A stretch of DNA of 64,000 bases from Actinomadura flavalba DSM 45200 (GTDB taxonomy: Bacteria; Actinomycetota; Actinomycetes; Streptosporangiales; Streptosporangiaceae). The position numbers were made by a program, and so were the translations under genes. The notes beneath the pieces were generated by a model, which did no database searches, was not told where the DNA came from, and saw only the letters and a program-made list of their open reading frames with translations. The DNA is taken from contig NZ_KB894093.1 in NCBI RefSeq assembly GCF_000374305.1, forward strand, positions 372,001 through 436,000, given 5' to 3'. Positions 50,428 through 54,850 of the stretch are shown here, one piece after another (the first letter of the stretch is position 1; every line of letters starts with the position of its first letter).

Positions 50428-51161
50428 CCCGTCGCGACGGTGGCGCCGAGGTCGTCGTCGGTGAGGATGGCCGGGGTGAGGCCCGCGTTGTGCAGGATTG
50501 CGGTCGCGGTGTCGAGTTGGCGGGTGCTGAGTTCTGTGAGGAGGACGCCGCCGGGGGCCAGCCAGGACGGGGCCTCGGCGGCGACGCGGCGCAGGACGTC
50601 CAGGCCGTCGGGGCCGCCGTCCAGGGCGACGCGGGACTCGTGGTCGCGGGCCTCGGCGGGCAGGAAGGGGACGTCGCCCGTCGGGACGTACGGGACGTTC
50701 GCGACGAGCACCGTCACGACTCCCTTCAGGCGGGGCGGCAGCGCGGCGAACAGGTCGCCCGCGAAGACCCGGCCGGGCGGGAGGTTGCGGCGGGCGCAGC
50801 GGACGGCCGCCGGGTCGACGTCGGCCGCGTACACGTCGCCGCCCGCGCGGGCGAGGACGGCGCCCGCCGCGCCCGTCCCGCAGCACAGGTCGACGGCGAC
50901 CCCGCCCTCCGGCAGCCGCGCCACCGCCTCCCCGGCCAGGAACTCCGTGCGCCGCCGGGGCACGAACACCCCCGGCTCCACGACGATCCGCAGCCCGCAG
51001 AACTCCGCGAACCCGACGACCTGCTCCAGCGGCTCCCCCGCGACGCGCCGCCCGACCATCGCCTCCAGCGCGCCCGCGTCCGGGGCCGCCCCTTCCAGCA
51101 GCGCCGCCTCGTCCTCGGCGAACACGCACCCCGCGGCGCGCAGCCTCTCCACGATCGTCAA
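50412..51161 (-). CDS. HemK/PrmC-like N5-glutamine methyltransferase
   Basis: 249 residues from a TTG that overlaps the upstream stop (TTGA) and has a very strong GGAGGAG 6 nt before it; the frame is open further but inside the neighbour. Motif I DLCCGTGAAG (91-100) and the catalytic-loop variant NVPY (155-158, family NPPY) identify a PrmC-like enzyme that would methylate a glutamine in a protein. Because it is translationally coupled to a signalling-type operon rather than to prfA, its substrate may be a partner in that operon; this is inference. Confidence 0.8.
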   Translation of the reverse strand: MTIVERLRAAGCVFAEDEAALLEGAAPDAGALEAMVGRRVAGEPLEQVVGFAEFCGLRIVVEPGVFVPRRRTEFLAGEAVARLPEGGVAVDLCCGTGAAGAVLARAGGDVYAADVDPAAVRCARRNLPPGRVFAGDLFAALPPRLKGVVTVLVANVPYVPTGDVPFLPAEARDHESRVALDGGPDGLDVLRRVAAEAPSWLAPGGVLLTELSTRQLDTATAILHNAGLTPAILTDDDLGATVATGQVDV

Positions 51162-53362
51162 CCCGGCTCCTCCTTGGCGAGCGTCCGCCGCAGCCGGACC
51201 AGGACGACCAGCAGCAGCCGCCGCCACTCCGGCGTCAGCAGATGAACCTCCACATCCTCCCGGACGCGCCGCCGTCGCGGGTCGCCTCCGGCCCAGTCGC
51301 GCACGAGGCCGAGCATCCGGGCCCGCCGCCCCGGATCATGACCCGTCGACCGGACGAACACCTCGACGATCTCCGCGCGCAGCCGGGGGTGCAGCAACGC
51401 GGTGTCCAGCCACAGCCGGACGGCGTCGGCGTACTCCGGCGTCGGTGCGCCGCCCAGGTCCCACCACGCCCGCCCCGACGCGGGCACGGGGACGGCCCCG
51501 GGATCGGTCAGCATCGACGCCGACCCGTCCGCCGCACGCACCCCGGCCAGCATGAGGAACAGCCACACCCCGGCCGACGCGCGCGACCCGTCCGGCCCGT
51601 TCAGCCACTCCAGCGCCAGCGCCTGCACCCGTGCGCGGCGCACCGTCGCCAGCCGCAGGCACGCCGCCAGGACGAGCCGCCGCACGCCCTCGTCGTCCAC
51701 GTCCGCGAGCCGCCCCAGCACGCGGGCCAGCGCCCGCACCTCGACCTCGCCGTCGTCGGGCCCGCGCCGCCGCGGCGCGCCGTCCGCCTCGGCGGGCAGG
51801 CCCGCCGCGACCAGGTCCAGCGCGGCCGTCAGCGCGACCGACGCCAGCCGCTCGGCCGCGCGCGGCGAGCGGTACCCGGCCGCGCTGTCGCACCAGCCCA
51901 TGAGCACGCCGAACACCAGGAGCGGGTCGTCCTGCGCGAGCGCCCGGACGACCGCGGCCACCTCGGCGTGCACGACCGCGTCGCCTCCGGCCGACAGGTG
52001 CTTGAGCCGGGTCAGCGCGACGGTCGGCAGCGTCCCGGCCAGCACCTGGCACACCCGGACGATCGTCAGCTTCAGCGACTGCGGCGCGGCCTGCTGCTGC
52101 GACCACTCGTACAGCTCGCGGCGGACCTTGCCGCCCACGACGGGATGCAGGCACGTGTCCGACAGCACGATGAACGCCAGGTCCACGCCGCCGATCCGGG
52201 CCGCCTCCTCCCCGGCCGCCCACTCGCGGGCCGTCGCGCAGATCAGCTCGGGCCGGTCGTGCCCGGCGGCCAGGTTCGCGAAGACGCGCGCGATCTTGCG
52301 CCGCAGCTCGGCGCCGAGGGTCACCGACGGCTGCGCGGGCAGCTCCGACAGCCACATCAGCAGGTCCGGGCGCAGCAGCGGATACGCCGCCCAGACATGG
52401 TCGATCACCGACGCGGCGAACCGCTGGCGGCGGAAAAGGATGCGGTCGGCGCGCCGATCGGCGCCGAGCACGTCCTCCAGTTCCGCCGACGGCCGCCACG
52501 CCAGGCCGCCCCCGGCGACCGACATGCGCAGCCGCTCGGCCAGCGACAGCGCCGCCTCGTACACGCTCATCTCGTCGGCCGGGGCGATCGTCGCCGCCGC
52601 GATGAGCAGCACCTGGTCCTGCTTGCCGTCGTGCTCGCGGAACCACGACCGCAGCTCGTCGCGCCAGCCCAGATAGGCGCGCTCCACCTGGTACTCGTCA
52701 CCGCCGGTCGCCGCGATGAGCCGGATCAGCCGTTCGGCGTCCGCCGCCGACCCCGCCTTGAGCAGGTCCCGCGCGCGCGGCCAGTCCCGCCACCGCGCCG
52801 CGTCGAGCCCGGCGGGCGCGAGCCGCCGCCGGTACACGTCGTGCGCGGGCGGCGGCTCCACGACGATCGACGGCAGCACGTGCGCGAACTGCACGCGCTC
52901 GTCCTCGCCGCCGATCGCCAGCAGCAGCCCGCCCGCGTCGCGCACCGCCTCCCAGCAGTAGCGCAGCCGGGACGGGTCCTCGTCCGACGCGCGGACCAGG
53001 TAGCCCGAGCGTCCCGCGACGCCGATCTCCTCGGCGTCGTCCCGGCCCGGGGAGAACCAGCGGACGCGCAGGCCCGGGACGATCGCGCGCGCGACCGCCA
53101 CGGCCGTCCGCTCGTTCTCCGCCTCGGCCGGGCCCACCAGCAGCGCGCCGCCGTACTCCCGCACCGTCGCGACGACGCGGTCGTGGTTGAGCGCGGGCAC
53201 GTAGCCGTCCACCCACTCGGTGACCTGCCGGTCCGACAGCAGCATCGCCGGACGGCCCCGCATGATGCGGATCTGGTTCTGCACCAGGTCGCCGTCCACC
53301 GTGTTGCCGAAGGCGACCTGGGCGTCGTCACCGGTGACCTCGGTGTCGCCGATCGTGGTCAT
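51158..53362 (-). CDS. Large protein with N-terminal FGNxVxGDL motif and P-loop-like segment lacking lysine
   Basis: 734 residues. Residues 9-28 form a short motif (VTGDDAQVAFGNTVDGDLVQ) shared with the C-terminus of the upstream gene product. A P-loop-like segment GALLVGPAEAENERTA (72-87) has no lysine, and GGLLLAIGG (about 144-152) resembles a Walker B strand, so a non-hydrolysing NTPase-like domain at about 60-250 is possible. Residues 250-734 are alpha-helical, probably repeats, with no recognised enzyme motif and no membrane helix. ATGA coupling to the cyclase-like gene. It resembles the sensor/scaffold partner of STAND-type conflict modules, but no family can be assigned with confidence. 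Confidence 0.75.
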   Translation of the reverse strand: MTTIGDTEVTGDDAQVAFGNTVDGDLVQNQIRIMRGRPAMLLSDRQVTEWVDGYVPALNHDRVVATVREYGGALLVGPAEAENERTAVAVARAIVPGLRVRWFSPGRDDAEEIGVAGRSGYLVRASDEDPSRLRYCWEAVRDAGGLLLAIGGEDERVQFAHVLPSIVVEPPPAHDVYRRRLAPAGLDAARWRDWPRARDLLKAGSAADAERLIRLIAATGGDEYQVERAYLGWRDELRSWFREHDGKQDQVLLIAAATIAPADEMSVYEAALSLAERLRMSVAGGGLAWRPSAELEDVLGADRRADRILFRRQRFAASVIDHVWAAYPLLRPDLLMWLSELPAQPSVTLGAELRRKIARVFANLAAGHDRPELICATAREWAAGEEAARIGGVDLAFIVLSDTCLHPVVGGKVRRELYEWSQQQAAPQSLKLTIVRVCQVLAGTLPTVALTRLKHLSAGGDAVVHAEVAAVVRALAQDDPLLVFGVLMGWCDSAAGYRSPRAAERLASVALTAALDLVAAGLPAEADGAPRRRGPDDGEVEVRALARVLGRLADVDDEGVRRLVLAACLRLATVRRARVQALALEWLNGPDGSRASAGVWLFLMLAGVRAADGSASMLTDPGAVPVPASGRAWWDLGGAPTPEYADAVRLWLDTALLHPRLRAEIVEVFVRSTGHDPGRRARMLGLVRDWAGGDPRRRRVREDVEVHLLTPEWRRLLLVVLVRLRRTLAKEEPG
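53279..53338 (-). repeat. FGNxVxGDL motif repeat, copy 2
   Basis: Codes residues 9-28 of the large protein. About 48 of 60 nt match the copy at 53371-53430, 92 nt away, mostly with third-position and conservative changes. Confidence 0.75.
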
Positions 53363-54105: not shown

Positions 54106-54172
54106 GGCGGGCCCCTTTCGGAGGTCGGCGAAGGTGTCCGACCACCATGCGCCCCGCGTCCGCGCCGCTGTG

Positions 54173-54850
54173 TCAGAAATCAGACACCGAGCTGTCCCGA
54201 TTCGGCCATGCGCGCAGTCGCGCCGCGTCGGCGATGAGCACGCGGCGCCGTTCCGTGACGACCAGCCCGGCTTTGCGCAGCACGGCCAGTTCCGCCGCCA
54301 CGACCCCGCGCGCCAGTCCGGCCGCCAGGCCCAGTTCGGCCTGGCCGAGCGGGACCTCCAGCCGTCCGTCGCCCGGTCCGGCGAGGCGCAGCAGCGCCCG
54401 GACGACGCGCGGCCCCGCCGGGAGCGCGGCCGTCTCGGCGCGCCACGCCTCGCTCTCCAGCATCCGGCGCATCGCCCGCGCCAGCAGCTCGCCCTCCGCG
54501 CCGATCTCCCGCACCAGCACGCGGAACCGGTCGGCGGGGAGCGTCCGCGCCCGGCAGGGATCGACGGCGGTGACGGTCGCCGAGCGGCCCGTCCCGCCGA
54601 GGACGGCGATCTCCCCGAGCAGCTCGCCCGGACCGCGCACCGCCAGCAGCAGCGTGGAGCCGTCGCTGTTGAGCCGCGTCACCTTGACCCGCCCGGCGGA
54701 CAGGTGCAGGACGTGCGACGGCGGATCGCCCTGGCGCAGCAGCACCGCACCCGGACGGAAACGGCATTCCACGCCCTCTCGGACGAACTTCTCCGAAAGC
54801 AGACCGTCCACGTCTTCCGCTCCGACCTCCGGGTGTGGCGAGAAAGGCAC
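54173..54850 (-). CDS. CRP/FNR-family regulator
   Basis: 225 residues from a GTG. Cyclic-nucleotide-binding fold at about 25-130 with the phosphate-binding cassette GELLGEIAVLGGTGRSATV (75-93), containing the Glu and Arg used to bind cNMP. A C-terminal winged HTH follows (about 165-215, PLGQAELGLAAGLARGVVAAEL), more diverged than usual. It heads the operon that continues with the cyclase-like gene, so a cyclic-nucleotide link between the two is plausible. Divergent from the vWA/solute-binding gene. Confidence 0.85.
   Translation of the reverse strand: MPFSPHPEVGAEDVDGLLSEKFVREGVECRFRPGAVLLRQGDPPSHVLHLSAGRVKVTRLNSDGSTLLLAVRGPGELLGEIAVLGGTGRSATVTAVDPCRARTLPADRFRVLVREIGAEGELLARAMRRMLESEAWRAETAALPAGPRVVRALLRLAGPGDGRLEVPLGQAELGLAAGLARGVVAAELAVLRKAGLVVTERRRVLIADAARLRAWPNRDSSVSDF

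Follow-up and report, generated by a model that had tools for sequence, protein, structure and literature searches.

The window analysed here, a 64,000-nucleotide stretch of the Actinomadura flavalba DSM 45200 genome (contig NZ_KB894093.1, positions 372,001 to 436,000), carries on its minus strand a three-gene operon that encodes a CRP/FNR-family regulator, a class III nucleotidyl-cyclase-like protein and a large sensor-like protein. The cyclase-like protein ends, and the sensor-like protein begins, with a similar short motif, and within a locus these motifs change together to a degree that phylogeny does not explain. By analogy with described systems, this arrangement suggests that the operon is a cyclase/CRP version of the known bacterial amyloid-signalling pairs. 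The features of the locus are listed below in window coordinates; pLDDT denotes the predicted local distance difference test score of the structural models.

54173..54850, minus strand: CRP/FNR-family regulator with a GTG start; Pfam cNMP_binding (1.9e-20) and HTH_Crp_2 (2.6e-11)
53359..54105, minus strand: class III nucleotidyl-cyclase-like effector of 248 residues; domain in residues 1-193, then a Pro/Ala linker and the C-terminal motif
53371..53430, minus strand: effector-side motif FNGDGTQAAFGNSVGGDLRQ (cyclase residues 226-245), from alignment and motif profile; pLDDT <50
53359..53362, minus strand: ATGA overlap of the cyclase stop and the sensor start, from the sequence
51158..53362, minus strand: sensor-like protein of 734 residues; disordered N-terminal motif, P-loop-like alpha/beta domain and ARM/HEAT-like helical repeats
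53279..53338, minus strand: sensor-side motif VTGDDAQVAFGNTVDGDLVQ (sensor residues 9-28), from alignment and motif profile; pLDDT <50
53105..53134, minus strand: degenerate Walker A segment GPAEAENERT (sensor residues 77-86), from alignment with GPPGSGR/V-type relatives
54903..54922, no strand assigned: inverted repeat CGGTGAGACCATGGTCACCG that precedes the CRP start by 53 bp; may act as an operator; seen in the window only

The ATGA overlap is a predicted translational coupling of the cyclase and sensor genes. According to the original prediction, the cyclase-like protein ends, after a Pro-Ala linker, with one copy of the motif and the following protein starts with its match; both statements proved exact in coordinates and peptide. 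Aligned locally, the two termini reach a best score of 65, compared with a maximum of 49 in 20,000 shuffles. A motif profile built on 20 family sequences picks out exactly two sites in the whole 6.2-Mb genome, namely the two motifs of the operon (E 7e-14 and 3e-13), and the third-ranked match reaches only E 0.98. Across 201 family genomes, the same profile returns 27 sites in 14 genomes, all of them at the cyclase-sensor gene pair; both members are found in 13 of these genomes and a sensor-side match only in one distant genome, and the paired sites are separated by 6-66 bases. This profile search, which the original prediction had proposed, shows the motif to be exclusive to this gene pair in both the 6.2-Mb genome and the family set. 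The three other cyclase-family members in the genome of the window (L002-L004; L-numbers are labels of the compared loci) have no such motif, and the Pfam amyloid-motif families give no match to the proteins of the operon.

To what extent the two motifs follow one another was assessed across 36 loci. The variable positions of the motif core agree within a locus in 107 of 144 cases, compared with 75.7 ± 4.0 when partners are permuted (at most 95 in 20,000 rounds) and 86 when the partner is taken from the nearest relative. Motif distances remain correlated once the divergence of the protein bodies is controlled (partial Mantel r=0.51, p=0.0002). Either Phe or another residue precedes 'GN', and this state is concordant between partners in 35 of the 36 loci. 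On a maximum-likelihood tree built from the rest of both proteins without the motifs, the label changes ≈10 times, with at least seven changes forced by well-supported branches, and phylogenetically independent pairs are divided into six same, none opposite and one unchanged (p=0.03). The residue following the Gln is the same in both partners at 31 of the 36 loci, and a one-residue deletion is common to both motif sides in L017 and L019. Chance resemblance of the motifs is ruled out by the shuffles, the permuted partners and the genome-wide specificity of the profile.

The gene pair itself recurs in a patchy fashion, with a homologue of the sensor present in 34 of the 65 genomes of the genus. 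At all 29 complete genus-level loci, a cyclase with a C-terminal motif lies directly upstream of the sensor and the motif is present on both sides, L029 being the weakest case. Wider neighbourhoods contain the cyclase in 37 and the CRP in 31 of 40 loci, and the CRP-cyclase-sensor order is nearly constant in 41 named loci, which overlap partly with these 40 and come from Actinomadura, Spirillospora, Actinocorallia, Streptosporangium, Actinoallomurus, Saccharomonospora, Kibdelosporangium, Saccharopolyspora and Actinopolyspora. The original prediction had asked whether paired motifs recur in neighbouring genes across genomes, and had named homologues without them as evidence to the contrary; the pair is kept at homologous loci, and motif changes occur on both sides together. 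A single-protein scan of the genome contigs with the cyclase gave no match, whereas an alignment-based scan with the sensor did. In collections of plasmids and phages, the cyclase was without any match, and the sensor had one weak match, on a Streptomyces replicon, and none in phages. A decayed copy of the operon is seen in Actinomadura madurae DSM 43067 (L152), in which the CRP is in two pieces, the cyclase is missing and the sensor is cut to 375 residues.

More distant loci carry different motifs that are, for the most part, again matched within the locus: GSNSGVAVQADSISGGLNF with GSNRGQAVQAGMIQGGVAF in L055, FSGASGTFVGVNQNSTNHGKQNY with FSSASGMFSGINQNSPNHGTQNY in L065 and SIGRDLDQSTQRQE with GIGRDLDQSHGKTE in L156. 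Over 25 such loci, the scores of own pairs sum to 1360, compared with 830 ± 52 for shuffled partners, and the own pair ranks first in 12. The effector can be exchanged as well. Several sensor relatives have no cyclase and are instead preceded by a TIR_2 protein (six exceed the Pfam cut-off), and the termini of these TIR_2-sensor pairs are matched in a motif of the type GPVHTGxGDQ. This exchange of effectors with the same sensor family strengthens an immune reading of the operon.

Other upstream proteins were encountered beside relatives of the sensor. The TIR proteins at L192-L195, L200, L201 and L205 have long Gly/Asn-rich tails with GPxHTGxGxxY-type motifs, and a similar motif is present on the paired sensor relatives; these loci are a candidate separate set of amyloid-motif systems. 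In L060 and L109, a small helical protein ends in VGGDFNVSGRDNN, opposite VEGDLYYAHRDNN. Its resemblance to a Bell effector is suggestive only, and a profile gave no confirmation. A different, unrecognised upstream protein in L202 (1305-2304, plus strand) ends in NVVNNGAGTVIVGEHQVFH, which faces DVDNHGPGTVFAAESQVFY in the relative of the sensor, and possibly represents a further effector class. At eight Actinomadura loci (L120, L122, L123, L128, L129, L133, L136 and L152), a second divergent cyclase with a helical-looking C-terminal domain lies on the same strand ≈1 kb upstream of the CRP. Pfam was run on one of them, that of L129, and identifies the fused C-terminal domain as EAD2 (E 1e-20), so that the short motif of the operon's cyclase occupies the position where a recognised adaptor sits in the sister protein.

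The description of the effector as cyclase-like, put forward in the original prediction, is borne out at the level of fold. A profile search of PDB sequences matches Ma1120, and in the AlphaFold2 model (the models used alignments that combine the window protein with its relatives) a confident domain spans residues 1-193, whereas the tail of residues 215-248 has pLDDT <50. In a Foldseek search of the PDB with this model, all 50 of the 50 matches listed are class III cyclases, the best being 5d0h (7e-7), itself a KDA-to-EGY mutant of Ma1120. The metal-binding aspartates D11 and D58 are invariant in 32 of 32 sequences, as is R128. Pfam, NCBIfam and PADLOC did not directly recognise either the cyclase or the sensor of the window, and weak family matches (Mce4_CUP1, for example) were judged to be accidental.

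The model of the sensor begins with a disordered stretch (residues 1-39) in which the motif has pLDDT <50, followed by a P-loop-like alpha/beta domain and ARM/HEAT-like repeats. Both motifs consequently lie in predicted disordered tails rather than inside a rigid domain, in agreement with the flexible termini that had been presumed for them. The P-loop-like segment, GPAEAENERTA, contains no Lys and no GxG; the Walker A Lys is absent in 30 of the 30 closest loci, and GAGK is present in the distant L065. Pfam nSTAND3 matches 17 of 23 sensor relatives weakly (best 2.6e-4), and the Foldseek matches of the model, all of low TM-score, include the STAND protein 6mfv (2.5e-4), SAMD9, Avs4 and armadillo repeats. 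The lysine-free P-loop-like segment and the helical repeats noted earlier are upheld by alignment, AlphaFold and Foldseek, and the modelling is compatible with a view of the large protein as a degenerate STAND/NLR-like sensor. In the third protein of the operon, the CRP, the phosphate-binding cassette GE...RSAT is kept across relatives.

We consider it probable that the STAND/NLR-like sensor recruits and oligomerises the cyclase through homotypic, probably amyloid-type contacts and that the CRP reads the product. The computed support for this model comprises the gene order, the co-evolution of the motifs, their disordered position, the folds, the metal-binding aspartates and the CRP cassette. 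When a putative trigger is met, the N-terminal Gly/Asn/Gln motif of the sensor would be exposed or clustered and would nucleate co-assembly with the C-terminal motif of the cyclase, most likely as a beta-arch or amyloid-type polymer. Class III cyclases act as head-to-tail dimers and need dimerisation for activity, and crowding of the cyclase domains would therefore allow them to dimerise and switch on cyclic nucleotide synthesis. The nucleotide would then bind the CRP encoded just upstream and change transcription. Of the original prediction of signalling through a homotypic contact, what can now be added is the co-evolution of the motifs and the disorder of the tails, from which we infer the contact and its amyloid form; its proposal that the CRP-like protein reads the nucleotide gains an intact phosphate-binding cassette, and the reading step itself is one that the CRP would be expected to perform. 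Defence is the likeliest biology, given the exchange with TIR effectors.

Several observations weigh against this model. The CRP was not detected in 9 of the 40 wide loci, the motif match at L063, L073 and L078 is no better than that of other pairs among the 25 distant loci, and local gene conversion may help to keep some pairs alike, as in L006, perhaps a recent case, where the core codons of the two motifs hardly differ. The sensor of the window is the longest branch on the tree and has no Pfam family match of its own. In the cyclase, the transition-state Asn is not conserved (the aligned residue, four before R128, is Ile, Val, Asn or Thr), and the adenine-recognising Lys position is occupied by Glu (22 of the 32 sequences) or Gln (the other 10). 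This last substitution argues against a canonical adenylyl cyclase and excludes that subtype only. Glu at the purine-recognising Lys position is the guanylyl-cyclase state. At the base-contact position of the CRP, the alignment of Actinomadura relatives also has Glu, a residue reported at this position for a cGMP-specific receptor (PMC11224242). Taken together, the Glu/Gln of the cyclase and the Glu of the CRP base site make a guanine cyclic nucleotide, possibly cGMP, a reasonable guess for the messenger. A more specific form of the model, in which prion-like, motif-templated polymerisation seeded by the receptor switches on the cyclase and leads to a cyclic nucleotide, possibly cGMP, and on to a dedicated CRP, as an amyloid signalosome whose output is transcriptional and whose motif can be exchanged as a whole if both partners change, is one that we advance tentatively and that may well not hold in every part.

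The same tails could instead form a small, defined beta-structure, such as a one-to-one dock or a short beta-solenoid, with no growth of a polymer. Co-evolution and disordered tails suit any self-matching contact, and each side has just one short motif; the layout and grammar, however, equal those of experimentally shown amyloid signalling motifs, and several motif classes in the relatives and the TIR tails are Gly/Asn/Gln-rich or repeated. We regard this non-amyloid contact as unlikely. A tether of the opposite sign, in which the motifs hold sensor and cyclase together at rest and a trigger frees the active cyclase, seems quite improbable: the ATGA coupling would fit stoichiometric synthesis of a constitutive complex, but the dimerisation on which class III cyclases generally depend is favoured by assembly, and TIR effectors, which are activated by oligomerisation, have the same arrangement. 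The closeness of the motifs (only 6-66 bases) and the L006 codons might also indicate that local gene conversion or a recent duplication keeps the motifs alike without any function in common. For matched residues, codon identity amounts to 71.6% within loci and 69.1% between loci, a difference that is not significant (p=0.11), so gene conversion is no general explanation of the match and is disfavoured as its main cause; moreover, protein matching persists in the distant motif classes and in pairs of sensors with non-cyclase effectors. We hold an origin of this kind, devoid of function, to be very improbable.

The remaining alternative concerns purpose rather than mechanism, because the same relay might serve development or stress physiology instead of phage defence. 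Its output through a CRP is transcriptional, and the genes are chromosomal, with no phage match and none or one weak match in plasmids. The patchy presence among congeners, the TIR exchange and the EAD2 cyclase adjacent in relatives point the other way, and a developmental or stress role appears somewhat unlikely.

The closest described systems are BASS1-10, the amyloid signalling sequences of bacterial NLR/Bell gene pairs (Dyrka et al. 2020, as described in PMC7889193, PMC8086366 and PMC12261475). They share with the operon adjacent or overlapping genes, a motif at the effector C-terminus and the receptor N-terminus, an occurrence in filamentous actinomycetes and TIR as a minor effector. The operon differs from them in that its effector is a class III cyclase accompanied by a CRP regulator and lacks the Bell domain, the anchor that defines BASS1-10, and in that the P-loop of its receptor is degenerate. 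By layout, the operon would work like a BASS pair, but with Bell absent it is not filed here as a BASS member. In fungi, the PNP_UDP/NLR motif PUASM (FxGxGxQxxGxGxF) is an experimentally shown amyloid signalling motif (PMC9815663). It resembles the motif of the operon in its GxGxQxxG-like grammar, in the single motif on each side and in the use of an enzyme as effector, and its GND/ARD asymmetry between effector and receptor recalls the GGD[LF]/SRDL of the operon (PMC9815663). Unlike the operon, PUASM and the fungal PP/RHIM motifs belong to another kingdom, use effector enzymes other than cyclases and have been shown to form amyloid (PMC9815663, PMC7885112).

EAD-class domains have been described as adaptors common to effectors and sensors (PMC8195603). 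The conflict systems built on them likewise combine an inactive STAND-like sensor, a cNMP cyclase and the same adaptor on both partners; in the operon, however, the adaptor is a short disordered motif rather than a helical EAD, and the CRP is a near-constant partner (Kaur et al. 2020, 2021; PMC7159879, PMC8195603). Membership in the MoxR-vWA/EAD systems was rejected, as the conserved neighbourhood is CRP-cyclase-sensor with no MoxR-vWA core, although MoxR was not searched genome-wide. Pycsar likewise has a cyclase of class III fold together with a gene whose product binds cNMP, but the partner in the operon is a transcription factor rather than PycTIR or PycTM, and the operon adds a sensor protein (PMC11224242). 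Assignment to Pycsar was also set aside, since the cyclase has no PADLOC PycC match and only the CRP matches, in the shared cNMP-binding part. Our literature search, mostly of open papers, found no description of the CRP-cyclase-sensor set; an earlier mention of cyclase effectors in the founding BASS paper is possible. If the model is true, the reach of bacterial amyloid-type signalling would extend to a second messenger and to gene expression, beyond membrane- or NAD-directed death effectors. The natural F/I and motif-class swaps would also offer ready cognate and non-cognate pairs for seeding specificity, which has so far been studied mainly in fungi.

Around the operon, the methyltransferase gene downstream did not emerge as a conserved neighbour. 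The divergent gene at 54835-57003 (plus strand) encodes SBP_bac_11 solute-binding and vWA domains and is without a homologue at the other loci in the neighbourhood comparison. No conserved CRP operator was found upstream of the operon at the other loci compared; in the window, the inverted repeat CGGTGAGACCATGGTCACCG is a candidate that could serve as an operator for the operon's own CRP.

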